Positions 1 to 36,957 of a DNA stretch of 37,457 nucleotides are shown in pieces. Each line of letters begins with the position of its first letter. Within the stretch, counting starts at the first letter, position 1. The stretch lies in NCBI GenBank assembly GCA_017549605.1, contig JAFYUH010000162.1, positions 1 to 37,457 on the forward strand, written 5' to 3'. Source of the stretch: Bacteroidales bacterium (GTDB taxonomy: Bacteria > Bacteroidota > Bacteroidia > Bacteroidales > F082). The notes below the pieces were generated by a model that was given only the letters and a program-made list of their open reading frames with translations, did no database searches and had not been told where the DNA came from. Both the position numbers and the translations under genes were made by a program.

Positions 1-141
1 ATTGAAATTACATGAAAGACAAAAAAACACCATCGATCCTCAACATAATACTTGCGGTATTTGCATTCATTTGTGGCCCTATTGGCTGGATAATAGGTGG
101 AATGTATTTCTTTTTCAGTTGGTCGAAGAATAACGCAATAA
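1..141. repeat. Terminal direct repeat marking a circular genome
   Basis: Bases 1-141 are identical to 37317-37457. The repeat starts inside the leader of the DUF4041 gene and ends 43 codons into it, so it has no biological boundary. The ribosome site of that gene (AGGAGA) lies at 37311-37316, just across the joint. The simplest reading is the k-mer overlap of a circular assembly, so one copy should be removed to give a 37,316-bp circle. Confidence 0.95.
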
Positions 142-1550
142 GAGATTATCAGTCTCAAATCGATCAAAAGAACGAAATGATAGCTTCTCTCGAAACAGCA
201 ATGGCTGAAGCCGAAGAAAGGATCGAGAAACTTGGCGTTGCGACATATGAAGAAACAATGCAAAAAGTCTCTGAATTAAACGCTCAGTACAACGAAAAAG
301 AAAAGATTATTGTGACTAAAGATCAAAACATTACAGATCTGAACAAGAAAATTGATGCTTTGAAAGCTGAAGAAGAAAAACTTAATAAACAGGTAGAATC
401 ACAGACCAAGCGTGTAAGCAAAATAAAAGAGCTGTATTCTGCGATTTTGTATGCAATAAATAACGAAAGCAGGCTTGCTGATGCTGACGAAGAATTTTCC
501 GGGGAATTGGTTCCGTCTATATCACTTAAATTGCATTGCATGGATTCTCGCGAGCTTCGCAAGGCATATAAGGATAATGACAAGATCATTTCTGAAAGAC
601 TTGAACAATATCAGGCGAGATACACCACTAAGAGCAACAAAACGATATATTCTCTCATGGTTATTGCATTAAAAGCCGAACTGCAGAATATTTTGTATAA
701 CCTGAAATACGAAAAGCTTGCAGATGCAGAAAATCAGGTCAAAGATGTAACAGAAAAATATCTGAAAATTGTTTCTGAAGGTAATTTAAATACAGCTGCA
801 ACAATAGGTAAGTTTATCGGTGAAATCGAATATCTCTTTATAAATGCCGTTAAGATAGAATATAACTACTATGTGAAGAGGGAACAGGCCAAACAGGAAC
901 AGGCTGCAATCCGTGAACAGATGCGACAGGAAGCTGAAGAACGCAAAGCTCTTGAAGCTGAAAAGAAGAAAGTGGAAAAAGAAGAAGAAAAATACAATAC
1001 GGAAATCAACAAGCTCAAAGAGCAGACTATGTCCGCTTCAGATGAAGAACTCAACAAGCTCAACGCTCGTATTCTTGAACTTCAAGCTCAGCTCGCTCAG
1101 GTTGTTGTCAAGAAGGATGAAATCACAGCTTTACAGAACGGAAAAGCCGGCAATATCTACATAATCAGTAACCTTGGTTCATTCGGAGAAAATATGTTTA
1201 AAATCGGCATGACACGTCGTCAGGATCCGCAGGATCGTGTCAACGAGCTTAGCGATGCAAGTGTACCGTTTAAATTTGATGTACACAGCTTCATTTTCTC
1301 AGATGATGCCGTAACCCTCGAACATAAAATACATACGGCACTTAACGATAAGCGCGTAAACAAAGTGAATCTCAGAAAAGAATTCTTCTATTCTACAGTG
1401 GACGAACTCGAACAGCTTGTTTACAAGCTGGACCCGACAGCAAACTTCACTAAGACAATGATTGCGGAAGAATACAGACAGTCACTGTCGACGGATGAAA
1501 TATATTCCGTCACAGCCGAATATGATAGCTTTGACGAAGGGGATGAATAA
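12..1550 (+). CDS. Membrane-anchored DUF4041 / GIY-YIG (T5orf172-MUG113) protein
   Basis: A 512-aa protein with one hydrophobic N-terminal segment (about 9-36), a long charged coiled coil (about 40-140), a DUF4041-like middle (about 140-290), a second coiled coil (about 285-375) and a C-terminal GIY-YIG-like fold of the T5orf172/MUG113 type (about 378-470). In the last part the conserved NIY is at 381-383, FKIG at 396-399, the arginine at R409, E437 in a LEHKIH context, and EFF at 457-459. The family is predicted to nick or bind DNA; no substrate is known to me. The gene lies on the lysogenic strand between repressor and integrase, the usual place for prophage-expressed accessory genes, so exclusion of other phages at the membrane is plausible but inferred. 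The SD AGGAGA is supplied by the end of the contig. No clear promoter was found in 37151-37316. Confidence 0.85.
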   Translation: MKDKKTPSILNIILAVFAFICGPIGWIIGGMYFFFSWSKNNAIRDYQSQIDQKNEMIASLETAMAEAEERIEKLGVATYEETMQKVSELNAQYNEKEKIIVTKDQNITDLNKKIDALKAEEEKLNKQVESQTKRVSKIKELYSAILYAINNESRLADADEEFSGELVPSISLKLHCMDSRELRKAYKDNDKIISERLEQYQARYTTKSNKTIYSLMVIALKAELQNILYNLKYEKLADAENQVKDVTEKYLKIVSEGNLNTAATIGKFIGEIEYLFINAVKIEYNYYVKREQAKQEQAAIREQMRQEAEERKALEAEKKKVEKEEEKYNTEINKLKEQTMSASDEELNKLNARILELQAQLAQVVVKKDEITALQNGKAGNIYIISNLGSFGENMFKIGMTRRQDPQDRVNELSDASVPFKFDVHSFIFSDDAVTLEHKIHTALNDKRVNKVNLRKEFFYSTVDELEQLVYKLDPTANFTKTMIAEEYRQSLSTDEIYSVTAEYDSFDEGDE

Positions 1551-1678
1551 TCACCCTCGCCCAGGCAACCAATGTCCTTTTGTGGGACGGGGACAAGCTG
1601 AGGGGGATGTATGGCAAATAACAAAAGTATTAAATATTAGACATCAAGTTAAAAAAACGCAAATTGCCATGTTTTGGC

Positions 1679-1695
1679 AGTCAAAAAAGTTGACA
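1679..1695 (+). promoter_or_regulatory. Remote repressor operator O4
   Basis: AGTCA-N7-TGACA, 17 bp, matching the three switch operators (TGTCA-N7-TGACA) except for the first base. It shares the wider pattern GTCAAA....TTGACA with O3 and with O2 read on the minus strand. Its right half is part of the -35 box of the promoter at 1690-1718, the same geometry as O2 at the leftward promoter. A second perfect dyad, TGCCA-N5-TGGCA, abuts it at 1665-1679 and could be the site of another regulator. Confidence 0.65.
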
Positions 1696-1718
1696 AACGG
1701 AGAGTGATTGCATATAAT
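1690..1718 (+). promoter_or_regulatory. Consensus promoter of the 1725-1803 RNA
   Basis: TTGACA at 1690-1695 and TATAAT at 1713-1718, separated by exactly 17 bp, a perfect housekeeping-sigma promoter. The -35 box overlaps O4, so in a lysogen it should be repressed. The expected start is about 1725. Confidence 0.85.
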
Positions 1719-1724
1719 GTGGGT

Positions 1725-1803
1725 GAAAGATCGGGCAAGCCTCTGAGAAAACTCATGCTGAAATGGCCCGCCATGGGAACTCACCGTTTGTGGTGAGTTT
1801 TTT
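1725..1803 (+). ncRNA. Candidate 79-nt phage small RNA or int leader RNA
   Basis: Bounded by a perfect promoter (1690-1718) and an intrinsic terminator (1778-1803). Inside, CGGGC at 1732-1736 pairs with GCCCG at 1766-1770, enclosing a TGAG-AAAA-CTCA hairpin (1744-1755). The only ORF is 13 codons (ATG at 1755), has no ribosome site and ends inside the terminator stem, so a coding role is unlikely. It may act in trans, or be an attenuated leader whose read-through reaches int. I do not recognise a known RNA family. Confidence 0.6.
1778..1803 (+). terminator. Intrinsic terminator of the small RNA
   Basis: An 8-bp stem (AACTCACC with GGTGAGTT), a 6-nt loop and six T residues. It can also end transcripts coming from the DUF4041 gene. 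Confidence 0.85.
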
Positions 1804-1944
1804 GTTTATACAGAGGATAGAGAGAAATTTGTTTCGGAAATTAAAACTTTTGCCAACAAATACAGTACCTATAAATCACTGTCTTTGAAAAATGCATATG
1901 GATTTACTGCAGATTGGGAAGATATTTTGATGAAACAAAAATAA
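1801..1944 (+). pseudogene. 3' remnant of an unidentified gene
   Basis: A frame of 47 codons ending in TAA at 1942-1944, with normal amino-acid composition (reads ...LKNAYGFTADWEDILMKQK at its end) but no ATG, GTG or TTG start with a ribosome site. The terminator of the small RNA covers its upstream edge. It looks like the tail of a gene whose front was lost in a recombination that placed the RNA unit here. The parent gene was not recognised, and a chance open frame is possible. Confidence 0.4.
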
Positions 1945-1957
1945 AGCCCAGGGATTC

Positions 1958-1982
1958 AGCTCGTCCCGTATACCGGGAAGCT
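1958..1982 (+). promoter_or_regulatory. Hairpin 1 upstream of int
   Basis: AGCT (1958-1961) and TCCCG (1964-1968) pair with CGGGA (1974-1978) and AGCT (1979-1982) around a TATAC loop. It is the first of three successive dyads in the 180 bp before the integrase start; an operator or leader structure is possible. Nothing else was identified in 1945-2122. Confidence 0.45.
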
Positions 1983-2011
1983 TACTACCAAGGGCATTAT
2001 TAGCACGTTAC

Positions 2012-2041
2012 CCGCCGTATATGTTGGCGCATATATGGCGG
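2012..2041 (+). promoter_or_regulatory. Strong 12-bp hairpin upstream of int
   Basis: Twelve bases at 2012-2023 pair with 2030-2041 with a single G-U wobble and a 6-nt loop. No T-run follows, so it is not a terminator. An in-frame ATG for a longer integrase lies inside this stem at 2021 but has no ribosome site, another reason to start int at 2123. Confidence 0.55.
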
Positions 2042-2046
2042 AAGGT

Positions 2047-2093
2047 CAGAGTGTATATAAACCGGAAATACAATGCCATTATAACACACTCTG
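2047..2093 (+). promoter_or_regulatory. Hairpin 3, next to the int start
   Basis: CAGAGTGT (2047-2054) pairs with ACACTCTG (2086-2093), and TATAA (2056-2060) pairs with TTATA (2079-2083) across a small internal loop. It ends 30 nt before the int ATG, so it could be a regulator site or control translation. Confidence 0.5.
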
Positions 2094-2122
2094 CCGAAAA
2101 AATCAATCTAAGAGAGAATTAT

Positions 2123-3157
2123 ATGGCAAAGGCGAAGAAAAATGATTCCGGCAAATGGGAAATTCAGGCAACGAAGACCATCGACGGAAAGAAGATCCGG
2201 AAGAGATTTTACGGGAAAACGAAGAAAGAAGCGGAGTATAATGCCGCCGTCTGGGCTAATTCCGTTACAGAAGAAAAGGAATCCGACATAAAGCTTGCTG
2301 ATGCGCTTAAAGCATATATTGAAAGCCGTCTCTACATTCTTTCACCTTCCACCATTGAGGGATACGAGAAGATAAAAAGGAACTATTTTCTTGATATACA
2401 AGAGAAAAGGATTTCAGATATTACATTTGAAATGCTACAAAAAGCCGTGAACGAGCTTTCAAAAGACAAATCTGCAAAGACGGTAAATAATGCGTTTGCA
2501 CTGATAAAAAGCGTTTTGAAGCAATATGACATTTCATGCGAGAATATCAGACTGCCGAAAAACGTCAAGCAGATTAAGCAGTATCCGCCATTAGAAGACG
2601 TTTTGCGCGCAATCTACGGGAGTGATGTATTCGTTCCCTGTATCCTCGCCATGTGGCTGAGTCTGAGAATGTCAGAGGTCCGCGGAGTCAAATACGGAGA
2701 TATTCACGATGGGAAGATCTACATAAAAGATACACTCCTACATGTAAACAATGAAGATATATTCATCGAGAACCGTACCAAGTCATACCAGAGCACACGA
2801 ATAATTTCTTTCCCCGAGTCGCTCAGAGCTATGATAGGGGAGGGGGAACCGGGAGAATTTATTGTAAAGGATACCCGCAATTATATTTATAAAAAATTGC
2901 AGAAGCTTCTGACAGATGCCGGAGTTCCGAATATATCCTTTCACGATCTACGCCACTATAATGCGGCAGTAATGGGACAGCTTGGAATATCAGACAAGTA
3001 TGCTATGGAGCGCGGTGGCTGGGATACAGAGAGTATATATCACAAAACATATCAGTTTTCATTTGATGAATATAAGGAAAAGGCGGATAAAAGTATAAAC
3101 AGCTTTTTCGAAAATGCAATTGAAAGTGCACAGCAAAGTGCACAATTTGCTGAATAA
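2123..3157 (+). CDS. int: Tyrosine-type phage integrase
   Basis: 344 aa. It catalyses site-specific integration and excision at attP just downstream. An N-terminal arm-binding domain (about 1-50, basic, K/R-rich) is followed by a core-binding SAM-like domain (55-140) and a catalytic domain (155-330) with R182, K220, H274-D-L-R277, W300 in the usual second-His position and the nucleophile probably Y310 (KTYQF). The ATG at 2123 is preceded by a purine-rich AAGAGAGAA; a longer frame from 2021 starts inside a hairpin and adds unrelated residues. The last residues ESAQQSAQFAE are encoded by two copies of the arm-type site, so the C-terminus and attP share DNA. Upstream hairpins and the repressor-controlled RNA unit suggest tight control. 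It ends 25 bp before the att core. Confidence 0.95.
   Translation: MAKAKKNDSGKWEIQATKTIDGKKIRKRFYGKTKKEAEYNAAVWANSVTEEKESDIKLADALKAYIESRLYILSPSTIEGYEKIKRNYFLDIQEKRISDITFEMLQKAVNELSKDKSAKTVNNAFALIKSVLKQYDISCENIRLPKNVKQIKQYPPLEDVLRAIYGSDVFVPCILAMWLSLRMSEVRGVKYGDIHDGKIYIKDTLLHVNNEDIFIENRTKSYQSTRIISFPESLRAMIGEGEPGEFIVKDTRNYIYKKLQKLLTDAGVPNISFHDLRHYNAAVMGQLGISDKYAMERGGWDTESIYHKTYQFSFDEYKEKADKSINSFFENAIESAQQSAQFAE
3123..3144 (+). repeat. Left pair of integrase arm-type sites
   Basis: AAAGTGCACA at 3123-3132 and again at 3135-3144, a 12-bp period, inside the 3' end of int. An identical pair with the same period and orientation lies on the other side of the att core (3350-3371). Tandem sites flanking a core are typical of the N-terminal arm domain of tyrosine integrases. 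Confidence 0.8.
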
Positions 3158-3182
3158 ATCGCATAAAAAGGCGATTGGCGAT

Positions 3183-3208
3183 GGGTTCGACTCCCCTCGC
3201 CTCCACCA
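3183..3208 (+). other. attP core: 3' end of a tRNA-like gene, probably tmRNA (ssrA)
   Basis: The stretch reads as T-loop (TTCGACT), 3' T-stem, 3' acceptor strand (CGCCTCC), discriminator A and CCA, ending at 3208. No D- or anticodon arm precedes it, so it is not a complete tRNA. CTCCACCA is the usual end of bacterial tmRNA, and A as discriminator argues against tRNA-Ser. The T-stem pairs only for GGG/CCC; the base before it (T3182) would mismatch C3196, suggesting that identity with the host gene begins at 3183. Integration here would restore the host gene with a phage-supplied 3' end. A tRNA target remains possible. Confidence 0.8.
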
Positions 3209-3225
3209 AATCAGTAATTTATTAA

Positions 3226-3250
3226 AAATCGCTTTTCTAAGCGATTTTTT
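3226..3250 (+). terminator. Terminator after int and attP
   Basis: A 9-bp perfect stem (AAATCGCTT with AAGCGATTT), TTCT loop and T-rich tail on the plus strand; A-rich flanks make it partly bidirectional. In the prophage it would lie just downstream of the restored tmRNA/tRNA gene and could terminate that transcript, while in the free phage it ends int mRNA. Confidence 0.8.
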
Positions 3251-3338
3251 ATTTTTACTTTTATTTAAGCCGTTTTTTAACGCGTTAATTTGTATTGCAT
3301 ATAGTACAAAATTCCTGTATATAAGAATAAAGTACTGT

Positions 3339-3370
3339 AAAAAATAAAAAAAGTGCACAGTAAAGTGCAC
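3339..3370 (-). terminator. End-of-late-operon terminator built from arm sites
   Basis: On the minus strand GTGCAC, a 6-nt loop (TTTACT) and GTGCAC form a stem, because GTGCAC is self-complementary, followed by seven T, A and six T. The same bases are the right-hand arm-type pair. It lies 20 bp after the last gene of the leftward operon. Confidence 0.7.
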
Positions 3371-3371
3371 A
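3350..3371 (+). repeat. Right pair of integrase arm-type sites
   Basis: AAAGTGCACA at 3350-3359 and 3362-3371, with the same 12-bp period and orientation as the pair at 3123-3144. It lies about 140 bp right of the att core, against about 40 bp for the left pair, giving an asymmetric attP. Confidence 0.8.
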
Positions 3372-3390
3372 GTTGTGAACGCAATTTGGA

Positions 3391-3582
3391 TTATTCCATC
3401 ATATGAAGGATTTTTTCTAAAGCCATTTTGTGAGTCAGTTCCTCATGCGCAATTTCTTTGAGAAAATGCGCTGATTTGTGCATCCCCATTGAACGGGCCT
3501 TTTCTGCCCATGCTTTATATTTCTGTCTGTCTTCATCTTCTTCTTTGATAGAGTTCATTATGAAAGTTTTAAATTCATCCAT
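3391..3582 (-). CDS. Small ferritin/rubrerythrin-like four-helix fragment protein
   Basis: 63 aa, helical throughout, with EEDEDRQKY near residues 14-22 and IAHEELTHKMALEKIL near 43-58. The EE..H pattern resembles one metal-binding helix of rubrerythrin-like proteins, but 63 aa makes only about half a four-helix bundle, so a dimer would be needed and metal binding is conjecture. The start overlaps the stop of the upstream gene by one base (TAATG), with an AAAGGAGA ribosome site inside that gene, implying translational coupling. It is the last gene of the leftward arm. Confidence 0.75.
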   Translation of the reverse strand: MDEFKTFIMNSIKEEDEDRQKYKAWAEKARSMGMHKSAHFLKEIAHEELTHKMALEKILHMME

Positions 3583-3923
3583 TATCTTTCTCCTTTAATG
3601 TACTGTTTTAACAAAATCACATCCTGATCCGAAAATGTCACAGGGCCTCCGGGGATTTTGTTGAATAATAATTTCCCGTATTTTCTTGCCGAGTCTGTAA
3701 ATGCCTCCGCTACATAGTCAATGTTAATATTTCCGCCTTCATCGACAATTTCAAAAGCTTTTGCCATTTCATTCGTTGAAATTTTTTCAAATACAACATC
3801 AACTTTTTTCATTGCTACATACAATGCGGCACCGCCTGCCCATTGAATAAATGTAGGAACTTTCGGAACGACTTCACAGTCGAAATATCGAATTATCCCA
3901 TTAAGGATCTGTTCTTTATTCAT
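3582..3923 (-). CDS. Conserved phage protein of unknown function (113 aa)
   Basis: Begins MNKEQILNGIIRYFDCEV and has a short apolar stretch (WAGGAALYVAM, about 28-38) too short and mixed to be a clear membrane span. The C-terminal part ends TFSDQDVILLKQYIKG. I have a general impression that proteins of this shape lie between lysis genes and integrase in Clostridia phages, but I know no function. It is the middle gene of the 168/113/63-aa cassette, coupled to the 63-aa gene. Confidence 0.75.
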   Translation of the reverse strand: MNKEQILNGIIRYFDCEVVPKVPTFIQWAGGAALYVAMKKVDVVFEKISTNEMAKAFEIVDEGGNINIDYVAEAFTDSARKYGKLLFNKIPGGPVTFSDQDVILLKQYIKGER

Positions 3924-3975
3924 TAATACGCCCCCATTATTAAGGAAAAGGGAGAATTACTCTCCCTATTTCTTT

Positions 3976-4482
3976 TTAAGCTCCTGTTGTAGATGCCGGT
4001 GCTACTGATACCACAACATCGCCCCAACCCGGACAGACCTTTGAATTATCAATCTTAACAGATGTAAGTGACATAAACTGAGCTGCCTGCGACTGAAGAA
4101 TTCCGATTGCGGAATTGTAACCGCAGTTGATAACCGCCTGAGATGCTGCATTGTCAACGACCTGACGTTCAAGACAAAGGATTCTATCAGAAACTCTGTC
4201 ATAAACTTCATTGATTTTTGCATTTGTAGCGTTGTAAACCTCAACAATTTTTTTCTCAGTGTTAAGTTCCGCTGCGAGCAGAGCATTTGCCCTTTCCGCC
4301 TCGATAAGCTTATTCTGGACATCATAAGTATCTTTCGATACATACTGCTGTCCTCCACCGAAAAGACCGCCTAAAAGTGGCATACCACCGCTGAGAAGGC
4401 TTAATCCGCCCAATGCTGTGCCGACGGTTCCGAGTGCCACACCTGCGTTACCCTGAGAACGAGATGCAAATTCACTTTCCAT
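3976..4482 (-). CDS. Gly-rich, probably virion- or membrane-associated small protein
   Basis: 168 aa. A Gly/Leu-rich segment (about 12-46, with repeats such as GGLSLLSGG and LLGGLFGGG) precedes a long helix (about 50-115) rich in A, E and K and a short beta-like tail. The Gly-rich part could insert in a membrane or pack in a virion. It is the first gene of the cassette, has a good SD (GGAGGA) and lies behind its own promoter (4561-4588) and leader hairpin, apart from the lysis genes. Function unknown. Confidence 0.75.
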   Translation of the reverse strand: MESEFASRSQGNAGVALGTVGTALGGLSLLSGGMPLLGGLFGGGQQYVSKDTYDVQNKLIEAERANALLAAELNTEKKIVEVYNATNAKINEVYDRVSDRILCLERQVVDNAASQAVINCGYNSAIGILQSQAAQFMSLTSVKIDNSKVCPGWGDVVVSVAPASTTGA

Positions 4483-4528
4483 TACTTTTCCTCCGTATTT
4501 TTATTTTTTTCACAATGTCGACTTTGTG

Positions 4529-4552
4529 CAGGTACACGCGCCTTTGTACCTG
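4529..4552 (-). promoter_or_regulatory. Leader hairpin of the three-gene cassette
   Basis: A perfect 8-bp inverted repeat (CAGGTACA with TGTACCTG) and 8-nt loop in the 5' leader of the 168-aa gene. No T-run follows. It may stabilise the mRNA or serve as an operator downstream of the promoter. Confidence 0.6.
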
Positions 4553-4560
4553 TTGAGCTA

Positions 4561-4588
4561 AGTATATCACTACCAAATTACAATTCAA
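4561..4588 (-). promoter_or_regulatory. Probable promoter of the three-gene cassette
   Basis: On the minus strand TTGAAT (4588-4583), 16-bp spacer, TATACT (4566-4561). Bidirectional hairpin terminators at 4885-5038 separate it from the lysis operon, so independent expression is likely. The rest of 4589-4820 is AT-rich with no convincing gene, apart from a 17-bp T/A palindrome near 4734-4750. Confidence 0.5.
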
Positions 4589-4836
4589 TATATCAGAATT
4601 ATGCTTGCACAAATTTGCATTTTTTTCTTTATTTTGCAATAAAAAAAGGCGTTGTAGGTGTAAAACAACGGTTTATAAGATTCTGTGTGAGTTCTTGCAA
4701 TAATGGCCTTATTTTATGCTTCAAACTGTATGTTTTTTAAATTAAAAAATAGGAGGATATTGAACCTTATTCGGCACACCTCGCAAAAATTCATATAAAA
4801 CTATTAAAATTCCCCGATTTATGATAAAATAGATAT

Positions 4837-4911
4837 GCAAGACTACCTTTTGGTTTTGATGTGATTTTTCAGGAAAATGAAAAAGGGCAGGGATCATTCC
4901 CCGCCTTTTTT
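4837..4911 (+). ncRNA. Candidate small RNA A, antisense direction to the late operon
   Basis: An extended -10 (TG-A-TAAAAT, box at 4825-4830) precedes about 75 nt containing a TTTTTCA/TGAAAAA hairpin and a terminator (GGC.GGGA with TCCC.GCC at 4886-4905, then T6). The -35 is poor. It could also be only a bidirectional terminator with a chance -10. Confidence 0.4.
4885..4911. terminator. Bidirectional intrinsic terminator
   Basis: A GC-rich stem at 4886-4905 with one mismatch, flanked by T6 on the plus strand and by CTTTTTCATTTT on the minus strand. It separates the lysis genes from the three-gene cassette. Confidence 0.75.
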
Positions 4912-4968
4912 CTTTACAAAAATGTATTTTTTTAACATAACTTCTTCAAGATGTGCTATAATATAAAT

Positions 4969-5038
4969 ATCTTTTTACTTCATCGCTGTGAGTACAAGAA
5001 AGAAGAAGGAACGGTATGCGGAGAACCGTTCCTTTTTT
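4969..5038 (+). ncRNA. Candidate small RNA B
   Basis: An extended -10 promoter (TGCTATAAT, box 4957-4962; possible TTAACA at 4932-4937 with a long 19-bp spacer) is followed by about 70 nt ending in a perfect 8-bp terminator hairpin (GGAACGGT with ACCGTTCC, 5008-5032) and T6. No ORF. With RNA A it forms two tandem promoter-to-terminator units in about 200 bp. Confidence 0.45.
5008..5038 (+). terminator. Intrinsic terminator of RNA B
   Basis: An 8-bp perfect stem, 9-nt loop, T6 on the plus strand. The minus-strand side is only partly T-rich (TTCTTCTTT), so it may also slow leftward late transcription leaving the holin gene. Confidence 0.8.
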
Positions 5039-5076
5039 CTTTGTGCAAAATAGAAAAACAACAAAAAAAAGAGGGA

Positions 5077-5454
5077 TTATTTATCCCTCTGCGTTCTGAA
5101 AAATGTATTGCGGTAGTATTCTTTCAGTTCCTGAAGATGCTGAGCGTCTACGCTATTCGCACCACGTTTGATATGTTCCTCGAACATCTTGATAGCGTTT
5201 TCGTACTGAATCTGAGTCATTCGCTTGCCGTTCTTATGCTTCTGATAAAAATCATTCAGAAGGAACGCTTCCTGTCCGTCAAGTCTGCTTGAAATATCTG
5301 CATTAAGCTTTTTGCCAAGCCATGCGAGAGCCTTTGAGAGGGGCTGTGCAGCGATTTTCTTGGAGCTGTCGATAATACTGACGATTACGATTAAAAGGGC
5401 TGATAAAGGCGTTATCCACTCTTTCAGGGCGGTAATTAATTCATTTGCTGTCAT
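5077..5454 (-). CDS. Holin-like protein (LLH type)
   Basis: 125 aa with one strong membrane span near residues 13-29 (PLSALLIVIVSIID), then a charged helical C-terminal domain. Size, single span and position right after the M23 lysin match single-span phage holins of the LLH kind, which open the membrane for the lysin. Its ATG overlaps the lysin stop by four bases (ATGA). As the lysin is itself membrane-bound, this could instead be a second or accessory lysis component. Confidence 0.7.
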   Translation of the reverse strand: MTANELITALKEWITPLSALLIVIVSIIDSSKKIAAQPLSKALAWLGKKLNADISSRLDGQEAFLLNDFYQKHKNGKRMTQIQYENAIKMFEEHIKRGANSVDAQHLQELKEYYRNTFFRTQRDK

Positions 5455-6299
5455 TTTGCCCTCATAATATTATACTTCTTGTCCGTATCCTCTCCGACAA
5501 TCTGATCTTTTGCAAGATAACACATTTCAAGCGGATCGACGGATTTCGCATATCTCTGAGAAGACGATGATAAGTCAGCCGTATGACCTTTCCAGATGTC
5601 GAAGTGGAGATGGTATCCGTTTGATGAACTGCCCGTATCGCCCATCTTGCCGATCACTTCGCCCTTCTTCACCTTCTGCCCCTTTTCAACGCTTGTATCT
5701 GAGAGATGGATAAAGCGATATGTATACTTCACTCCGTTAATCGTCGCATAAGCTCTGATGTTACGACCGATGACGGCTGAATTACCAACCTCAACCACTT
5801 CCATATCAGACGGGGCAATAATCGGCTGATTCTTTCCGCCATGTTCTGATGAGAACCCGAAGTCTATAGCCGGATGCTTGGAGCTGTACGGAGTAGTAAC
5901 CCCGACATAGTTCACCGGGAAGATGAGAAAGTCCTTTTCAGGCTCTTCTTTGGGTAACGGTTCAGCCTTTTCGATCATATCCGATACGCTGACAAACATT
6001 TTCCCAAGCATCCCGTCTGAAGCTTTGAGCTTTTCGTAAAAGCCCTGAGAGCCGAGCCATAAGCAGACCGCAAGCCATATGCCCTCTGAGAGGTTCATTT
6101 CCGTAAAGGTATCGGCAAAGCCAAGACCGAACCCTGCTGAAATGAGGATGCTTGCGATAAAGTAAAACCATCCTGCTTTGATTTCCGTCGCTTTGAGGGA
6201 TTCCACTAAATAGCAGACGGGCAGGCTCAGAACAAAGCCGAGCATAAGGATCTGAACGAAGCTTTCAAGTTCTTTCATATAGATAAATTCAATGTTCAT
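5451..6299 (-). CDS. Membrane-anchored M23 endopeptidase (holin-like/endolysin fusion)
   Basis: 282 aa. Residues 13-32, 41-61 and 72-88 are three apolar spans resembling a small phage holin. Residues 125-260 form a LytM/M23 zinc endopeptidase with H142-x3-D146 and the H230-L-H232 pair (HLHFD), plus the GQKVKKGEVIGKMGDTG strand typical of the fold. It should cut peptidoglycan peptide bridges from a membrane position. The start is the ATG at 6299 behind GGAGAGAAA; the frame runs further upstream but through three RNA hairpins. The joining of three spans and a peptidase in one chain is unusual. Confidence 0.85.
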   Translation of the reverse strand: MNIEFIYMKELESFVQILMLGFVLSLPVCYLVESLKATEIKAGWFYFIASILISAGFGLGFADTFTEMNLSEGIWLAVCLWLGSQGFYEKLKASDGMLGKMFVSVSDMIEKAEPLPKEEPEKDFLIFPVNYVGVTTPYSSKHPAIDFGFSSEHGGKNQPIIAPSDMEVVEVGNSAVIGRNIRAYATINGVKYTYRFIHLSDTSVEKGQKVKKGEVIGKMGDTGSSSNGYHLHFDIWKGHTADLSSSSQRYAKSVDPLEMCYLAKDQIVGEDTDKKYNIMRAK

Positions 6300-6320
6300 T
6301 TTCTCTCCTTTATATTTTTC

Positions 6321-6353
6321 AAAAACCCGCCCTTGCACGGGGGCTTGGGCGGT
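6321..6353 (-). terminator. Terminator/attenuator between tail fibres and lysis genes
   Basis: On the minus strand CCGCCC pairs with GGGCGG (6352-6347 with 6332-6327), followed by G and five T. It is the last of three hairpins in this gap and lies just before the lysin ribosome site, so lysis expression may depend on read-through. Confidence 0.6.
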
Positions 6354-6377
6354 AAAAACAAATGAGTTTTTGTCAAC

Positions 6378-6425
6378 CTCCCACCTGTGGGGAGTTAAGA
6401 GTCCGCAACCCCGAAAGAGTTGCGG
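6378..6425 (-). promoter_or_regulatory. Two further hairpins in the tail-lysis gap
   Basis: CCGCAAC (6403-6409) pairs perfectly with GTTGCGG (6419-6425), and CTCCC (6378-6382) pairs with GGGAG (6390-6394). They are more GC-rich than their surroundings. With the terminator at 6321-6353 they make a structured leader ahead of the lysin. No gene is visible in 6300-6480. Confidence 0.5.
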
Positions 6426-6480
6426 TGGGTGTTGTATTGTTATATTGTTTTTACTATTCCATATCTTCCTCAAAATCAGG

Positions 6481-6954
6481 TTAGTCCCCGCCACCAACTG
6501 CAATGTATTGATAACCACTTCCCGTATATAGGTTTGAATTATCTGATATGATTGTAAACCCATCGTCATTAGGAACAATTATTGCATAAGACCCTGCTGC
6601 ATAGAATCTTATATTCGCTGAATTACGCTTCGCAACAGCAGCTTGAGCACTTTCGGGAAGATAATATATAGCACTCAGTACATAATAAGATGTACTCGTT
6701 ATTGCACTTGTGCTTACAGACAATGATACCATTATATACGACGGTTTAAATCCAAGTCCGTTTATGGTCGCAATCGTACTCCCTGACGATTTCACCCCTT
6801 CACTAAGAGATATTTTTCCAGTGGCTACTTTATATCCACCACCTGAACCACCACCTGAACCTGCATCAGGAAGGGCGTTTATCTTCTGCAAGAGTTCGGG
6901 GAGCGTTGTGTTTTTAATTGTATTTATTTTGGTTGTATTGTTTTGTAATGTCAT
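6481..6954 (-). CDS. Fibre-like baseplate appendage protein 4
   Basis: 157 aa. An N-terminal helix (about 1-30, MTLQNNTTKINTIKNTTL) is followed by a Gly/Ser hinge (GSGGGSGGG, about 32-40) and a beta-rich domain with many S, T, Y and G residues. The same plan is found in the next gene upstream. It is probably a receptor-binding tip or decoration joined through its helix. No catalytic motif. Confidence 0.7.
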   Translation of the reverse strand: MTLQNNTTKINTIKNTTLPELLQKINALPDAGSGGGSGGGYKVATGKISLSEGVKSSGSTIATINGLGFKPSYIMVSLSVSTSAITSTSYYVLSAIYYLPESAQAAVAKRNSANIRFYAAGSYAIIVPNDDGFTIISDNSNLYTGSGYQYIAVGGGD

Positions 6955-6964
6955 AAGTCACCTC

Positions 6965-7420
6965 TTATGAGAATGTTATTGTTGCAGGTTCTGTACCTAT
7001 CAAAAATACAGAACGGGTAGGTGCAGTGCCTCCCATGATGGATGTATATCTCGAAGTATTTGACGGTGTGCAAGTAAACATTGAGAAGTCCGAAACATAC
7101 AAACCGAATAAACTGTTCGCTAATACATCGGAGAATGTCATAGTATCAGCGTTCATTGTACCCTGTACTATTTCTGTCCCACCTGAAACAACCTTTGCGT
7201 ATTCATACTTTACGTCACCAAATTCGCCATATCCTGCCGCGCCACCTGTAAATGAAACTGTCACAGTACAAGGCTGAATACCCCCACCACTTCCACCACC
7301 CGCCGCTTTACTATCAAGTAAAGTTAACGCCTGTGTAAGTTGGGATTCGATATCGGATAAACCCATTTCCTGATTATTAACCGCTGTGATAATACGATCT
7401 AATTCTGTCTGAATACTCAT
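6965..7420 (-). CDS. Fibre-like baseplate appendage protein 3
   Basis: 151 aa with a helical N-terminus (MSIQTELDRIITAVNNQEMG..., heptad-like), a Gly-rich hinge (AAGGGSGGG, about 39-47) and a beta-rich C-terminal domain. The helix-hinge-beta plan is shared with the 157-aa protein downstream, while the C-terminal domains look unrelated, suggesting swappable binding heads. Confidence 0.7.
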   Translation of the reverse strand: MSIQTELDRIITAVNNQEMGLSDIESQLTQALTLLDSKAAGGGSGGGIQPCTVTVSFTGGAAGYGEFGDVKYEYAKVVSGGTEIVQGTMNADTMTFSDVLANSLFGLYVSDFSMFTCTPSNTSRYTSIMGGTAPTRSVFLIGTEPATITFS

Positions 7421-7432
7421 ATGAGTACCCCC

Positions 7433-8305
7433 TTAAATCGCCGCAAGTGCTTCTTCAATGTCCGATGTGAGCGATACCGTGCCGCCTGTTGTATATCCAG
7501 CAGGAATTGAGGCACTTGTTGAGGTAATACCGTCAATGGTCTTGTTCATGGCACCATTACTCGCCATAGTTCCTTCGACTTTTGTGCCTGCAACATAAGC
7601 TGTCTTACCGTCGAGGATTTCAGTAGCTTTCGCAGTCGCATCTGTTGTGGTGATATACTCAGCAGGGATCGCTTCAACCTTTACGGAAGAAAGGACTTTT
7701 CCACTTGTCGGTGTAATTGTCTGCACGCTCTTTGTCGGTGTGACAGTCTTTGTCTCTACAGTGAGTTTGACTGTGCCTGTGCCGTCGTGGTAGCCTTTCG
7801 GGATAGTAAACGATACCGTTGTAACGTCAAGTGTCTTGCTGACTGCCCCGTTGTTTGTCATTGTACCTGTGATTACTGTACCGTCTGCGGCTACAAAGAT
7901 TTTACCTGTGAGAACATCACCTGCCGCCGTTGTTACACTTGTAACATCCTGATATGCGTCGGGAATTGAAGCTACTACAACGTCAGATAAACCGAAATAT
8001 CCGCTGTCTGCTGTAATGGACTGCTGTTTCTTTGTCGGAGTTACTGTCTTACTCTGAAGGTTATAGTTGCCCCCACCTGCAACGCCTGAAACTGTACCTG
8101 CACCATTGTGGTATCCTGCCGGAATTGTATATGTCTCGCCTTCTTTTACGCTTACTGCTACAGCTCCCTGATTAATAAGAGCTGCAATAGCCGCTGCAAG
8201 TTTATCAATATTATCTGTGTTGTTTGCCATGCCAAGCTCAACAAGCTTAGCCCTGATAGAGTTTCTTGCCGCTTGTAAACGGCTGATTTCTGTTGAAATA
8301 GTCAT
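7433..8305 (-). CDS. Tail fibre with IPxGYHxGxG repeats
   Basis: 290 aa. The N-terminal helix (MTISTEISRLQAARNSIRAK) is followed by repeated modules: IPAGYHNGAGTV, IPKGYHDGTGTV and the degenerate IPAGYTTGGTV, alternating with TVTPTK.xQxIT and G.V..SV.V..IP strands. Such repeats are common in tail fibres and collars of Bacillota phages and build beta-prism shafts. It probably contacts the host surface. Function is inferred from repeats and position. Confidence 0.8.
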   Translation of the reverse strand: MTISTEISRLQAARNSIRAKLVELGMANNTDNIDKLAAAIAALINQGAVAVSVKEGETYTIPAGYHNGAGTVSGVAGGGNYNLQSKTVTPTKKQQSITADSGYFGLSDVVVASIPDAYQDVTSVTTAAGDVLTGKIFVAADGTVITGTMTNNGAVSKTLDVTTVSFTIPKGYHDGTGTVKLTVETKTVTPTKSVQTITPTSGKVLSSVKVEAIPAEYITTTDATAKATEILDGKTAYVAGTKVEGTMASNGAMNKTIDGITSTSASIPAGYTTGGTVSLTSDIEEALAAI

Positions 8306-10641: not shown

Positions 10642-12263
10642 CAGATACCTCCTAAAACATCATTTATCTGTTTAAACATGCTCCACAATGCACCCGAACT
10701 TACGGGTCGTGCATCATTCTGAACGGCTTCATCTGTGGTCTCGACGCTGATAACTCCATCTGACGATATGTCAATTCCATCCCCCTCTGTATACGATCCG
10801 CCACCGCCTGAACCTCCCGGATAAGTTCCCGTTACTTCGAGATTGCCGTTGATCCTGAACGTTCCTTCTTTCCATTGATAAGCGGGGACTGCACGACGGA
10901 TGGTTCCTTTATATACAGTTCCGTCACTCAGGGCATCATCAACCAAGATCTCAAAGGTATAAGTCTCAAGATACGACAATTCAAAAGTGAAGTCAAACGC
11001 AAACCGGACTGCTTCCATCACATCATCTGTGGCGTTGAGGTCGCGTTCTGAGCCTTTAAAAACTTCGTTGGAGCCTTGTTTATATATCTTCACATGCAAA
11101 TTAAGCGTTTTGTTGGCTACACCATCCAAAATGCCTTTAAACCAAGTTCCGATCCCCGACAATGTTATTTCTCCTTTATCAATATCTCTTTCGATATCAA
11201 CACTGCCGATGCTCGGCGGAGCATACGGGATAACATTGTCAATACTGACTGTTTTAGACGAACTTAATCCTCTGCTGTCTGTAACCGTTACTCTGTAAAT
11301 GTTTGAAGTTGCTTTGTCAAAAACAGCGGGATTCGTCGTTCTTATCCGTTCTCCGTCAAAAACCGAGAAATTCAACGATTCCGAAGCTCCAAGTGTAGGA
11401 TAAGCATTTTTAATAGTGACAGTAACTGTGCTGATCCCATTGATCAAGGTTTGTCTATCAGACGAATCTGTCCTGATTTCAACATCGAAAGTGGGGGTTG
11501 CGTTGACATAAACGAGAAGATAAGATGTTGTTTCACCAAGCCGAGTCCCGTTCGAGTCGTATGTCGTAACTATAAGCTTACAAAGTTCCGAGGACGCATC
11601 TTCAGGAATCGCATTACGTAAACGATATGGAACAGTCCACTCTATCTGCGATTGAGCTGTTTTTTCGGCGATTGTTCCCGAAAAGCCGTTACAATCATAA
11701 GTGATATCACAAACATAATCCGGATTTGTTTTTGTAATATACAAAGTGGTCACATCGTCTACATAAGCAGTTCCCTGATGGTTTATCTGTATTAAGCGTT
11801 GAATCGGCGGAAGTGTGATCGCCGCAGTAGTCGTTACCTTCTGAAAGTGGTTCGATGATGCTTCACCTTTGATAAGCCCGACTACGCTGACTGTAGCGGA
11901 TCCGTTATCGTTATGGGAAATCTCGTATTCGACATATTTATTCTCTGCATCGGTCTTTAATGGATAATCCGAGGAAACAGGATAAAGTGTTCCTACGCTC
12001 GCTTTCCTGAAGTCGAACGCTGTTCTGATGGTCTTTTCATTATCTTCGATTTTAAAAGATGATTTTTGCCAATCCGGATTTCGTGTATCATTAATTGGAT
12101 CGCTTACAGCCTTATACTTTATGATATACGGTCTCAGTCTGAGCTTACTCTTATTCGTGGCTGTACGATCTTCGTCGACAACCATCCACTGAAAGCCACC
12201 GCCATATCTGCCTGATGAGGGATAAACGACACCCTCAACTGTTGTCCATACTCCTAATCCCAT
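10641..12263 (-). CDS. DUF859-like siphovirus tail/receptor-binding protein
   Basis: 540 aa, almost wholly beta-strand, with Ig-like repeats (TVTIKNAYPTL..., VTVTDSRGLSSSKTVSIDNVIPYAPPSI at about 290-350) and a C-terminal Gly hinge (GGSGGGG, about 480) before a short helical tail. This matches the DUF859 family of siphovirus minor structural proteins, found in baseplates. It overlaps the hub gene by 10 bases. Confidence 0.75.
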   Translation of the reverse strand: MGLGVWTTVEGVVYPSSGRYGGGFQWMVVDEDRTATNKSKLRLRPYIIKYKAVSDPINDTRNPDWQKSSFKIEDNEKTIRTAFDFRKASVGTLYPVSSDYPLKTDAENKYVEYEISHNDNGSATVSVVGLIKGEASSNHFQKVTTTAAITLPPIQRLIQINHQGTAYVDDVTTLYITKTNPDYVCDITYDCNGFSGTIAEKTAQSQIEWTVPYRLRNAIPEDASSELCKLIVTTYDSNGTRLGETTSYLLVYVNATPTFDVEIRTDSSDRQTLINGISTVTVTIKNAYPTLGASESLNFSVFDGERIRTTNPAVFDKATSNIYRVTVTDSRGLSSSKTVSIDNVIPYAPPSIGSVDIERDIDKGEITLSGIGTWFKGILDGVANKTLNLHVKIYKQGSNEVFKGSERDLNATDDVMEAVRFAFDFTFELSYLETYTFEILVDDALSDGTVYKGTIRRAVPAYQWKEGTFRINGNLEVTGTYPGGSGGGGSYTEGDGIDISSDGVISVETTDEAVQNDARPVSSGALWSMFKQINDVLGGI

Positions 12264-14151: not shown

Positions 14152-15888
14152 TTAACCTCCGTACGCAAGATTCATTTTTCTATTGTAAGTGTTTACAATT
14201 TCCGTAAGAGTTGAGCCATCAACTTCAAGAACGATTCTCTGAGTAGAATTTAAAGAGTTTTCATCAAACGCAAGGTTGAGTTTTTCTTTTAAATTTACGC
14301 CCTTTGTTGACAATCCCAAATCAACGCCTGCTGTGTAATTGGACAGCCATGCAAGCTGAGAATCGATGTCTCTTTTCAGTGCGGGCATTTCTTTATCAAA
14401 TCCTACTCCGATACCTTTTACAAGGTTTACACCGATCATGTCCCGCATTACTTTCGACGGAGAGGCAATGCCGAAAAGTTTTTTCATGTAGCTTGTCACA
14501 TCGCCAACCCATCCTTTAATCTTATTCTTAATCCATGAAACACTACCGGAGAGGCCTTTCCATAATCCTTCAACAAGATTTTTTCCTGCGTCCTTCATAT
14601 CTTCGAATCCGTCCGAGAACCATTTAACCATGTCGACAAGAAACTTTGCAATCTGATTCATTAACCAATCATATGCGTTTTTAATGCCTTGTCCGATCCA
14701 ATGAATGACATCCGATCCGAAATCGATAATCATGTCAGCTCCTTTTCCGAGCCATAAAGAAAGATCTATGAGAAATTTTGCAACATTGGATGCAAGCCAC
14801 TCACTTGCAGATTTCATCCCATTCCACAACGCTTCGATAATGTCTTGTCCGCATTTTAAAATCAATGCTCCAAGTTCTGCCGACCATTCGAGAATATGCG
14901 CAATAGAAACTGCAAGAAGGTTCATGAATAATTCACCGATATGCACAAGGATTGCAGGCGTGTTTGTGATTATCCCCTTTATAAGAGCTTCAATAATCTG
15001 AATTCCGATCTCCACCAGCTTCGGCAGAGCTTCGGCAGCCTTATCTGCAAGCATCGCAATCAGATCGCCTATGCTTTCCGCAAGTCCCTCAACACCTTCT
15101 TCAGAATATACTTCTGCAATATGCTGAACCATGTTGGTCAGACCCTGAACAGCTTCAAGAGCTACAGGGAGAAGGTCCGCACCGATTGTTGCACTTAACG
15201 ATTCAAATTCAAGCGAAAGGATTCTGAGAGAGTTTGCAAGGCTTGTTTCCGCTGTTTTTGCAAAATCCCCCTGCGCATCGGCTGTAACCGACATAAGATA
15301 GTTATATCTTAACGTCGCCTGCTCTGCCTGAGTCATTGCATTAAACGATTTTGTAATGCCCTGAGAAAGCGCGTATGCTTCGAGATTCGCAACGGACATA
15401 TTAATCCCGAGCTGTTTTAAAGGTTCGGTTTCTCCGCTTATACCCGCTCTGATTTTATTAAAAGCATCTTCATGGTTAAGGTTGTAAAACGATGCAAAAT
15501 CCCCGGCAAGTCCTGTCATGTCTGTTGACATTTCAAGAACAGCATCGTTTGAAAGGCCCATGCTTTTAAGCATAGCTCCCATGGTGCCCGTGTATTTCTT
15601 TGCAGAAAGTTCTGAGAGCCCATAAGCTTCTTTTGCTTTCTTTGCAAAGTCTTCAATCTTATTCGCTCCGTCACCGAATGTTGTATCTACGACGTTCTGT
15701 ACTTCACTCAGATCGCTTGCAGTGTTTACGGAATCTATCCCGAATTTAACAAGCGCGGCGGTTGCTCCGGCAAGAGCTATTTTTAATCCGGATAACGCTT
15801 TTTTCTCTAATGTGGAAAGAGAGGATTGCAACTGGCTTGTATCCAGCTCAGTCGATATTTTGACACTGCCGACTTCCTCAACAGCCAT
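14152..15888 (-). CDS. Tail tape measure protein
   Basis: 578 aa. Typical features are a helical N-terminus, the TASDLSEVQNVVD and MGAMLKSMGLSNDAVLEMS segments of phage TMPs, a Gly/Ala-rich apolar middle (about 275-345) that can cross the host membrane, and W-rich amphipathic repeats (WLASNVAKFLIDL, WLMNQIAKFLVDM). At the usual rough 0.15 nm per residue the tail would be about 85-90 nm, fairly short for a siphovirus. Confidence 0.93.
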   Translation of the reverse strand: MAVEEVGSVKISTELDTSQLQSSLSTLEKKALSGLKIALAGATAALVKFGIDSVNTASDLSEVQNVVDTTFGDGANKIEDFAKKAKEAYGLSELSAKKYTGTMGAMLKSMGLSNDAVLEMSTDMTGLAGDFASFYNLNHEDAFNKIRAGISGETEPLKQLGINMSVANLEAYALSQGITKSFNAMTQAEQATLRYNYLMSVTADAQGDFAKTAETSLANSLRILSLEFESLSATIGADLLPVALEAVQGLTNMVQHIAEVYSEEGVEGLAESIGDLIAMLADKAAEALPKLVEIGIQIIEALIKGIITNTPAILVHIGELFMNLLAVSIAHILEWSAELGALILKCGQDIIEALWNGMKSASEWLASNVAKFLIDLSLWLGKGADMIIDFGSDVIHWIGQGIKNAYDWLMNQIAKFLVDMVKWFSDGFEDMKDAGKNLVEGLWKGLSGSVSWIKNKIKGWVGDVTSYMKKLFGIASPSKVMRDMIGVNLVKGIGVGFDKEMPALKRDIDSQLAWLSNYTAGVDLGLSTKGVNLKEKLNLAFDENSLNSTQRIVLEVDGSTLTEIVNTYNRKMNLAYGG

Positions 15889-35602: not shown

Positions 35603-35788
35603 TTACTCCTGATTTAAATTGGATGAAAAATCCATTACTTGGCAGTCGAATGTCAGCTTGACTGTAAGCTCTGTTTTTCCCGAAGCAGAGCTTTTTATTT
35701 CGTAGTCAGTGATACGGATAATTTCGTTGCCGATTGTCAGGATGCTGACACCATCGATCCTCTGCAGTTGAATACTCGTGTTGTTCAT
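35603..35788 (-). CDS. Hypothetical early protein (61 aa)
   Basis: Beta-strand pattern (VSILTIGNEIIRITDYEIKS, TELTVKLTFDCQVMDF). The next gene upstream (75 aa) has a similar size and pattern (LNLRISGSECRFEIILGY), so the two may be remote duplicates. Function unknown. Confidence 0.65.
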   Translation of the reverse strand: MNNTSIQLQRIDGVSILTIGNEIIRITDYEIKSSASGKTELTVKLTFDCQVMDFSSNLNQE

Positions 35789-35800
35789 TTTTATGTCTCC

Positions 35801-36028
35801 TCAAAGCTCAGATGGGTCTAAAGTAATTTTTTCGTTCTTGGTTCTTCCGGATTTGCGCCCCCAGCTTCTGGGGCTTCCGGAATAACCCAAAATAATTTCA
35901 AACCTACACTCCGATCCTGAAATGCGAAGATTTAACTCTGTTGCGTTTTCGGGTATCTGTTCTCCGTCTATTTTTATAATGCCTTCATCCCTGTTTATTT
36001 CAAGGGTATTAAACGTTTTAGCTCTCAT
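35801..36028 (-). CDS. Hypothetical early protein (75 aa)
   Basis: Starts at the ATG at 36028 directly after the cro stop, with AGGAGGTG encoded by the last codons of cro. MRAKTFNTLEINRDEGIIKI..., beta-rich, with a basic GRKSGRTKNEK tail. No family recognised. Confidence 0.65.
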   Translation of the reverse strand: MRAKTFNTLEINRDEGIIKIDGEQIPENATELNLRISGSECRFEIILGYSGSPRSWGRKSGRTKNEKITLDPSEL

Positions 36029-36030
36029 TT

Positions 36031-36213
36031 TCACACCTCCTGGAAAAGCTCCGTCCAATCGAATCCCAGAACCTCCGCGATCTTCTTGGCGGTGGGGACG
36101 GTAGGTTTTGAGTGTCCGTTTTCCCACATGGTTACTGTGGTCCTTTTCACGCCCACTCGTTTGGCGAGCTCCTCCTGTGTCATATACTTTGACAATCTTC
36201 TATCTTTAAGCAA
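36031..36213 (-). CDS. Cro-like XRE regulator
   Basis: 60 aa. HTH at about 11-32 (MTQEELAKRVGVKRTTVTMW) and a closing helix (VPTAKKIAEVLGFDWTELFQ). It is the first gene of the leftward operon, opposite the repressor. The start is TTG at 36213 with AAGGAGT seven bases before. It probably competes for O1-O3 to shut repressor synthesis, as in lambdoid switches (inferred). Confidence 0.85.
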   Translation of the reverse strand: MLKDRRLSKYMTQEELAKRVGVKRTTVTMWENGHSKPTVPTAKKIAEVLGFDWTELFQEV

Positions 36214-36229
36214 TGTTTTTACTCCTTAA

Positions 36230-36246
36230 TGTCAAGATTTATGACA
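36230..36246. promoter_or_regulatory. Operator O1
   Basis: TGTCA-N7-TGACA, perfect half-sites. It covers the expected start of the leftward promoter PR (about 36242). Centre at 36238, 42 bp from the centre of O2. Confidence 0.88.
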
Positions 36247-36248
36247 CT

Positions 36249-36277
36249 ATTATATTTGCAAAACCCGCATTTGTCAA
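36249..36277 (-). promoter_or_regulatory. Leftward early promoter PR
   Basis: Minus-strand TTGACA (36277-36272), 17-bp spacer, TATAAT (36254-36249): perfect consensus. The -35 lies in O2 and the start in O1, so repressor at either site should block it. Confidence 0.93.
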
Positions 36278-36288
36278 TATGTTTGACA
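36272..36288. promoter_or_regulatory. Operator O2
   Basis: TGTCA-N7-TGACA, overlapping the PR -35 box. The centre (36280) is 42 bp from O1 and 43 bp from O3, four helical turns each, so all three lie on one DNA face, fitting cooperative binding. Confidence 0.88.
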
Positions 36289-36308
36289 TATATTTTTAAT
36301 TTTTTTGC

Positions 36309-36337
36309 TTGCATTGTCAAACGGATTGACATACAAT
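36309..36337 (+). promoter_or_regulatory. Repressor promoter PRM, giving leaderless mRNA
   Basis: TTGCAT (36309-36314), a 17-bp spacer and TACAAT (36332-36337). The start is expected at 36344-36345, on the repressor ATG (36345), and no ribosome site precedes that ATG. The spacer is exactly operator O3, so high repressor or Cro would block it. Confidence 0.75.
36315..36331. promoter_or_regulatory. Operator O3
   Basis: TGTCA-N7-TGACA, exactly filling the gap between -35 and -10 of the repressor promoter, an ideal site for self-limitation. Confidence 0.85.
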
Positions 36338-36344
36338 TTTATAC

Positions 36345-36914
36345 ATGAAGAATATTGCAAATTTAAGAAAAAAGAATGGGCTTACACAATTAGCATTAGC
36401 CCAAAAACTCAATGTATCAAGAAGTACAGTTGCAATGTGGGAGCTTGGAAAATCGGAACCGAGCAATGACATATTGAAGGAGATGTCTAATATATTTAAC
36501 GTTTCGATAGATTTTTTACTCGATAAAGAAGTATCTGAAAAAACAACCCCCGAAACTCTTGAGATCGCAAAACGTGTTACAGAACGCAGAACAGAGCTGA
36601 ATATCACCAGGGAAGAACTCGCGGAGAAAATCGGTGTATCAAAATCCACCATGCAGAGATATGAAAGCGGAGCCGTTCAGCAGATTCCTTTTGATAAGCT
36701 TGAAAAGATAGCCGAAGTTCTGAACACTACCGTTGCTACACTCTCCGGATATGAAGAAGAGGAAAAGAAGGCGGAATCTTTTGCAGACGTCTTCACTGTT
36801 CTTTTGCGGGATGAAGAATTGCTGAACACAGTACTCTCACTTTTGCGCGTAAAAGAGAATAGCGAAGATTCTTACAGGAACCTTACCGCCCTTATTAAGG
36901 GGATGAGCAAATAA
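36345..36914 (+). CDS. Phage repressor with two XRE HTH domains
   Basis: 189 aa. HTH-1 at about 3-58 (GLTQLALAQKLNVSRSTVAM) and HTH-2 at about 73-135 (NITREELAEKIGVSKSTMQR), then a helical tail (about 145-189) probably for oligomerisation. No S24 peptidase domain or Ala-Gly cleavage site is visible, so RecA-stimulated self-cleavage is not expected. It probably binds O1-O3 and O4. The mRNA seems leaderless. It stops three bases before a minus-strand terminator. Confidence 0.9.
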   Translation: MKNIANLRKKNGLTQLALAQKLNVSRSTVAMWELGKSEPSNDILKEMSNIFNVSIDFLLDKEVSEKTTPETLEIAKRVTERRTELNITREELAEKIGVSKSTMQRYESGAVQQIPFDKLEKIAEVLNTTVATLSGYEEEEKKAESFADVFTVLLRDEELLNTVLSLLRVKENSEDSYRNLTALIKGMSK

Positions 36915-36917
36915 AAA

Positions 36918-36937: not shown

Positions 36938-36957
36938 ATAAACGGAAGGACGAAAAC

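Follow-up and report, generated by a model that had tools for sequence, protein, structure and literature searches.

What controls the integrase gene (int) of this phage, and does its repressor reach from the lysis-lysogeny switch to a strong promoter just ahead of int? The window, that is, the whole stretch of 37,457 nucleotides that was analysed, is an entire contig (C154) of a draft genome assembled into 205 contigs. As the same 141 bases stand at both ends (1-141 and 37317-37457), it was taken to be a circular phage genome, 37,316 bases in size, and distances crossing the junction were shortened by 141 bases. The identified lytic genes (encoding a RecT-like protein, a single-strand binding protein, a methyltransferase, a terminase and an endolysin) are on the minus strand, as is the gene for a Cro-like protein. 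The plus strand carries, in order over the junction, the repressor gene, a MUG113/T5orf172 gene, the unit at 1679-1803 with which this work is concerned, the integrase gene, and a sequence resembling a tRNA/tmRNA 3' end. The features of this arm are as follows:

12-1550, plus strand: MUG113/T5orf172-domain gene (Pfam; phrog_1847), located between the repressor gene and O4
1665-1679, no strand assigned: second dyad, TGCCA-N5-TGGCA, with ordinary arms of 5 bp
1679-1695, plus strand: O4, putative remote operator AGTCAA-N5-TTGACA, covering the -35 box of P1690
1690-1718, plus strand: P1690, sigma-70 promoter TTGACA-N17-TATAAT, scoring 12/12 in the promoter scan
1725-1803, plus strand: predicted short transcript, its start placed 7 nt past the -10 box
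1775-1802, plus strand: intrinsic terminator between P1690 and int, the first listed past the T5orf172 gene
2123-3157, plus strand: tyrosine-type integrase gene (phrog_1, E 4.3e-42; Pfam Phage_integrase, E 6.4e-6)
3162-3209, plus strand: probable attP core, similar to a tRNA/tmRNA 3' end, directly after int

The Pfam match of the integrase (E 6.4e-6) fell slightly below the family cut-off, and the start of the gene was chosen by alignment with relatives. The sequence that follows it, presumably a tmRNA 3' end, probably constitutes the attP core. Of 24 other loci with similar sequence, 22 carry it no more than about 210 bases past int (it is farther away in L121 and L069), and some of the matches reach E 0.01-0.04 only; in a 25th locus (L105) the match was confined to sequence outside the core. 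No whole tRNA or tmRNA gene was detected at this position by ARAGORN, and the window's own draft genome contained no second copy of the core at E 0.01. Close relatives of the phage proteins were scarce. Single-protein scans of viral contigs produced two loci for the repressor, three for the T5orf172 protein and none for the integrase, while in genomes only the window itself was matched by the integrase at E 1e-40 (family) and 1e-45 (order) and by the repressor at E 1e-10 (family), and the T5orf172 protein had one other match at E 1e-30. Four loci (L018-L020 and L022) held no relative of this integrase within the stretches examined.

The switch contains four perfect TGTCA-N7-TGACA dyads (starting at 36178, 36230, 36272 and 36315), compared with the three, O1-O3, of the first-pass annotation. 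Its features are:

36031-36213, minus strand: Cro-like HTH protein (Pfam, PHROG), first gene of the lytic arm
36178-36194, no strand assigned: switch operator within the start of cro, a perfect dyad
36230-36246, no strand assigned: switch operator O1, downstream of the PR -10 box
36272-36288, no strand assigned: switch operator O2, over the PR -35 box
36315-36331, no strand assigned: switch operator O3, equal to the 17-base spacer of the TTGCAT/TACAAT repressor promoter (read by eye)
36345-36914, plus strand: repressor with two HTH_3 domains (Pfam)

Only 7 bases separate the TACAAT box from the repressor ATG (36309-36345, by eye), and the repressor mRNA is perhaps autoregulated and leaderless, as read from this arrangement; an operator nested within the promoter in a manner similar to O3 was also found in locus L380. 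Peptidase S24 was absent from the repressor among the matches listed (25 of 52 Pfam families), which makes induction by self-cleavage doubtful. The recognition helices of the repressor (SRSTVAMWE) and of Cro (KRTTVTMWE) are of the same type, and for this reason O4 would probably be bound by Cro too. Beyond the repressor gene, on the minus strand (36918-37150), a promoter scoring 12/12 and devoid of an operator precedes a frame of 38 codons (start at 37074) and a terminator that is convergent with the repressor gene; Pfam returned a single match below its cut-off (E 0.0054) for this unit, which is probably expressed in the lysogen.

At 1679-1695 the AGTCA-N7-TGACA dyad that had been proposed as an operator is present, and its claimed geometry was confirmed: O4 lies over the TTGACA box (1690-1695), which is followed by N17 and TATAAT (1713-1718), in a register identical to that of O2 at PR. 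Three promoters in the circle score 12/12 (1690 on the plus strand, and 36277 (PR) and 37150 on the minus strand), and an operator dyad covers the -35 box in this register at PR and P1690 but not at 37150, where five mismatches were counted. The stretch GTCAAA....TTGACA that O4 was said to share with O2 (on the minus strand) and O3 is likewise held in common, and the match exceeds what chance would give. Relative to TGTCAA-N5-TTGACA, O4 has a single mismatch, at the outermost base, which may weaken binding. A matrix derived from the dyads of the switch, all four of them, placed O4 fifth among all positions, so that no site beyond the switch matched better, and sites with its score appeared only twice in 30 simulated genomes (0.07 per genome).

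Where TTGACA is given, a left half as good as that of O4 had a chance of 0.0022-0.0029 when three base compositions were tried. Among 11-mers of the phage itself, those of the switch counted in, 227 of 74,610 were as good; when the 11-mers were drawn from two intergenic stretches, O4 itself lying in one, the figure was 11 of 1926 (0.006). TTGACA occurs 27 times in the circle and is accompanied by the full left arm in seven cases (six in the switch, one at 15514) and by four of the five left-arm bases in three more, among them O4. The site at 15514-15530 is a perfect TGTCA-N7-TGACA dyad that lies far from the switch, inside a minus-strand frame of 578 residues; shuffled windows contained a mean of 0.02 such dyads. 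A perfect dyad within a gene indicates that stray sites do arise, and this counts against the reading of O4 as an operator. Taken with the four switch dyads, it also makes O4 at least the fifth site in the phage and not the fourth, as it had been numbered.

These figures bear on the explanation that the overlap is coincidental: P1690 would then be constitutive, perhaps what remains of an accessory gene, since lost, that had a promoter and terminator to itself, and the left half-site would have arisen by chance. The dyad TGTCAA/TTGACA amounts to two back-to-back -35 boxes, which in our opinion is part of the reason why isolated dyads are common in viral contigs: a pattern scan, too permissive to be telling when taken alone, returned at least 120 stretches with a dyad on a promoter, and 112 of those listed had no second site (up to two mismatches, within 200 bases). 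The absence of a recognisable gene from the open frame at 1801-1944 also fits a remnant. Set against this are the conditional chance of about 0.003 given TTGACA, the presence of the exact AGTCAA form in real switches (see below), and the lack of a leftward -10 partner at O4 (read by eye), so that coincidence appears distinctly improbable. O4 and its promoter are real and stand out beyond chance.

O4 is solitary, being the one site with up to two mismatches in 1550-2122, and the arrangement present in the switch, two to three operators spaced by about 42 bases, is absent here; as this trait describes switches, O4 was classed as a single remote site and not as a switch. Its distance from the switch operators is 2.68-2.82 kb round the circle, measured from centre to centre, the 2.9 kb given previously having included the terminal repeat. 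A second dyad at 1665-1679 does abut O4, as had been pointed out, but with arms of 5 bp about one such dyad (gap 3-11) is expected per 110 bases, and it therefore carries no evidential weight.

A second switch carrying the same dyads came to light in locus L127, through a 25-base blast match to this one. Scanning IMG/VR for pairs of GTCAA-N5-TTGAC dyads at 22-38 bases from each other produced 53 stretches, of which the 15 with a pair at most one mismatch from TGTCAA-N5-TTGACA were kept and the other 38 set aside. A helix of the form R-[STA]-T-[VIL]-x-M-W-E was encoded in frames near the pair in six of these 15 loci and not in the remaining nine, and the dyad is consequently not exclusive to this repressor type. 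Six whole records, picked for the RxT[VIL]xMWE helix and comprising 243 kb in total (L127 lies in one of them, G566), contained 16 sites with at most one mismatch in their switches and one elsewhere. Six of the 16 switch operators deviate at an outermost base, as O4 does, and three of these six have the exact AGTCAA form (two in G564 and one, on the other strand, in G561). The spacing of the switch operators in these relatives was 39-43 bases. Five of the six have a promoter of at least 10/12 with an operator on its -35 box and a 17-base spacer (the gene served was not established for each), and by this likeness O4 and P1690 resemble a PR-type module placed elsewhere. The comparison suggests that the operator TGTCAA-N5-TTGACA is paired with the helix RxT[VIL]xMWE. 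These sequence comparisons give good support to O4 as an operator at which the phage's repressor acts on a promoter, and the repressor very probably occupies it, on a strong promoter just ahead of int.

The position ahead of int was not seen as a trait of the family. Beyond the switch, five of the six operator relatives contain no site with one mismatch or none, and in the sixth (G563) the single non-switch site is 22 kb from the located int. Four of the six yielded an integrase, at 21-33% identity (none was found in the stretch examined for the other two), and the 1200 bases ahead of these four contained no site with up to two mismatches apart from the switch itself. When 160 int loci were scanned for dyads together with the window, an operator array with a further copy ahead of int was recovered in the window; beyond it, only repeats ahead of int were seen, in L125 and L147. 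A different array was observed in the viral contig L241, where tandem TGTCAAAAAATTTGACA-like dyads with a spacing of about 21 bases are joined by two further copies (11006-11232 and 9627).

As for what P1690 serves, it is the sole plus-strand promoter of at least 11/12 in the arm from repressor to int. No plus-strand promoter of at least 9/12 was found between the terminator and int, and no plus-strand terminator from the start of the repressor gene to 1775 (scans of 1-8000 and 35700-37457). The terminator hairpin itself (1775-1803) has a folding energy of -13.3 kcal/mol and a z-score of -4.19. On the strength of these two absences the unit was read as a PL-like promoter with a default stop, and our main reading, to which we assign a probability of roughly 0.55, is that O4 is a remote repressor operator placing the only strong promoter of the int arm under lysogenic control.

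From this arrangement we infer repressor binding, a transcription start, read-through and an effect on int, in the following way. In the lysogen, repressor at O4 would cover the -35 box and keep P1690 off, and the terminator at 1775-1802 would halt read-through from the repressor-T5orf172 operon, leaving int silent. Upon infection or induction P1690 would become active; most of its transcripts would stop near 1803, giving a short RNA, and a minority would pass the terminator into int and supply integrase for integration or excision. As the terminator looks strong, passage into int is not certain.

The region between the terminator and int has two further features. The open frame at 1801-1944 has 47 codons with neither a start nor a family match and is possibly the remnant end of a lost gene; a slightly longer version of it had no phage match better than E 0.9. 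On the minus strand (1936-2106), an extended -10 promoter (TTGATT-N17-TATAAT, with TG before the -10 box) is directed away from int, and the sequence downstream of it (1930-2071) folds strongly on both strands (z -2.88 on the minus and -3.72 on the plus strand) and ends U-rich. A minus-strand RNA from this promoter could possibly be antisense to the int leader; searches of 99 other loci and of 172 other genomes of the family gave no relative.

A strong terminator within the leader, and no other plus-strand promoter of at least 9/12 ahead of int, would equally be expected of an antiterminated leader, in which P1690 is again repressor-controlled and a phage or host factor carries polymerase past the terminator for phase-specific expression of int, as in the pL-N-tL1-int arrangement of lambda. 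The first-pass annotation had proposed an attenuator that releases int, and the lack of a promoter between terminator and int does make such a device possible; its folding side failed, however, since no alternative antiterminator fold competes with the terminator, and freeing the 5' arm of the hairpin costs about 11 kcal/mol. Nor was a nut-like site or an N-like protein recognised in passing, and we regard antitermination of this kind as unlikely.

The short RNA itself, by inference induction-dependent, could instead be the functional product. The 79 nt fold with -25.3 kcal/mol (z -2.0; 5 of 200 shuffles equally good), but without the terminator (1725-1774) the z-score is only -0.81 and 42 of 200 shuffles do as well, so that of the structured RNA with a strong terminator that had been described the terminator stands and the structured body does not. 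Two reading frames, both judged by eye, were considered and rejected: a GTG frame at 1719-1796 and a short frame within the RNA that opens with ATG. The GTG precedes the predicted start, and no ribosome-binding site was seen.

Searches for relatives of the RNA were negative throughout. No Rfam family matched at the gathering threshold, and a weak match to the rnk leader in a permissive search (E 1.1, far under the cut-off) was rejected. With blastn, no relative was obtained in 172 other genomes of the family (five short matches, E 0.0015-0.008) or in phages (three short matches, E 0.05-0.6), and one exact core of 26 bases in viral contigs and one of 24 bases in genome contigs also failed to give any. 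The covariance search of 1725-1803 that had been recommended as a check gave, in 172 other loci, nothing under E 0.28, the match at that value (in L101) involving the terminator alone, and the model gave none at E 0.01 under stricter filters in 294 other genomes of the order. Promoter-terminator units ahead of int were found in 1 of 143 integrase relatives, much as in control stretches (5 of 432; 17 of the 160 int loci, with less than 700 bases ahead of int, were omitted, and some of the 143 are near-duplicates); the one relative (L133) is not similar in sequence by eye.

A trans-acting small RNA, produced on induction while int is driven from elsewhere, is thus to be judged on two sides. A promoter followed by a short body and a terminator is the arrangement of StxS and OOP, as given in the accessible part of the source (PMC12197685), and the best duplex formed by the RNA with phage sequence other than its antisense strand (-47.8 kcal/mol) was ahead of those of seven of eight shuffled RNAs (range -41.8 to -51.3). 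The eighth, at -51.3, outdoes it, leaving no clear target in the phage, the body folds no better than shuffles, and neither Rfam nor blastn, the exact cores or the covariance searches yielded a relative. The proposal of a trans-acting sRNA accordingly has little to commend it apart from the layout of promoter and terminator, and we consider it improbable. Both the sRNA and the antiterminated leader are possible but unsupported. It is similarly doubtful that the locus combines the two, with a two-HTH repressor lacking a recognised peptidase domain acting through a single operator 2.7 kb away on an RNA that would be an induction-specific sRNA and an int-gating leader at once. In that event the choice between lysis and lysogeny would be tied to integration and excision through a single promoter, and int would have none of its own.

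Remote repressor-controlled promoters are well known, and in the oL/pL-tL1 arm of lambda such a promoter leads to int via a terminator. If the main reading is true, it would explain, at the level of sequence, how a temperate phage known from a draft assembly alone could silence int in the lysogen and free it on induction, and the pairing of operator and helix could be used to predict switches and their remote targets in other viral contigs. In the open-licence literature, as far as titles and accessible portions go, a repressor operator at an integrase promoter led only to work on Apl of phage 186, nothing on TGTCA with prophage repressors concerned a phage switch, going by titles and the openings of abstracts, and no distal operators of phage 186 were found.

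Among described systems, the repressor of cluster A mycobacteriophages binds as a monomer to more than 20 asymmetric sites of 13 bases, according to the accessible part of the source (PMC9283540). The present phage is similar in having two DNA-binding domains in its repressor and sites beyond the main switch, and differs in that the sites are few and are symmetric dyads of 17 bases. The CI/MOR switch of TP901-1 has a third, distal operator, OD, in the distal part of mor (accessible part of PMC7250872); in both phages the repressor and a Cro-like gene are divergent and are served by several operators, one of which lies past the intergenic region (here, at the start of cro), whereas the additional site of TP901-1 is, in the same part of that source, within mor and not at a promoter ahead of int. 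The predicted RNA of 79 nt is comparable in size to the phage sRNAs StxS (74 nt) and OOP (77 nt), which come from promoter-terminator units (PMC12197685, accessible part), but unlike them it is known from sequence alone and no conservation was found for it.

The closest likeness is to oL-pL of lambda, where another promoter under repressor control lies to the integrase side of the repressor gene and is followed by a terminator and then int; the operator-bearing promoter directed towards int and the intervening terminator are seen here at the level of sequence only. The distance to the switch, 2.7 kb, is similar to the operator spacing of about 2.3 kb in lambda (PMC5880393, accessible part). 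Unlike oL, which has three operators, the present unit has one, no N-like gene was recognised in its leader, and the repressor is without peptidase S24 among the matches listed (25 of 52 Pfam families). As a single remote operator outside any cluster, it is not classed as a member of the oL/pL type, but as a unit that would work like pL.
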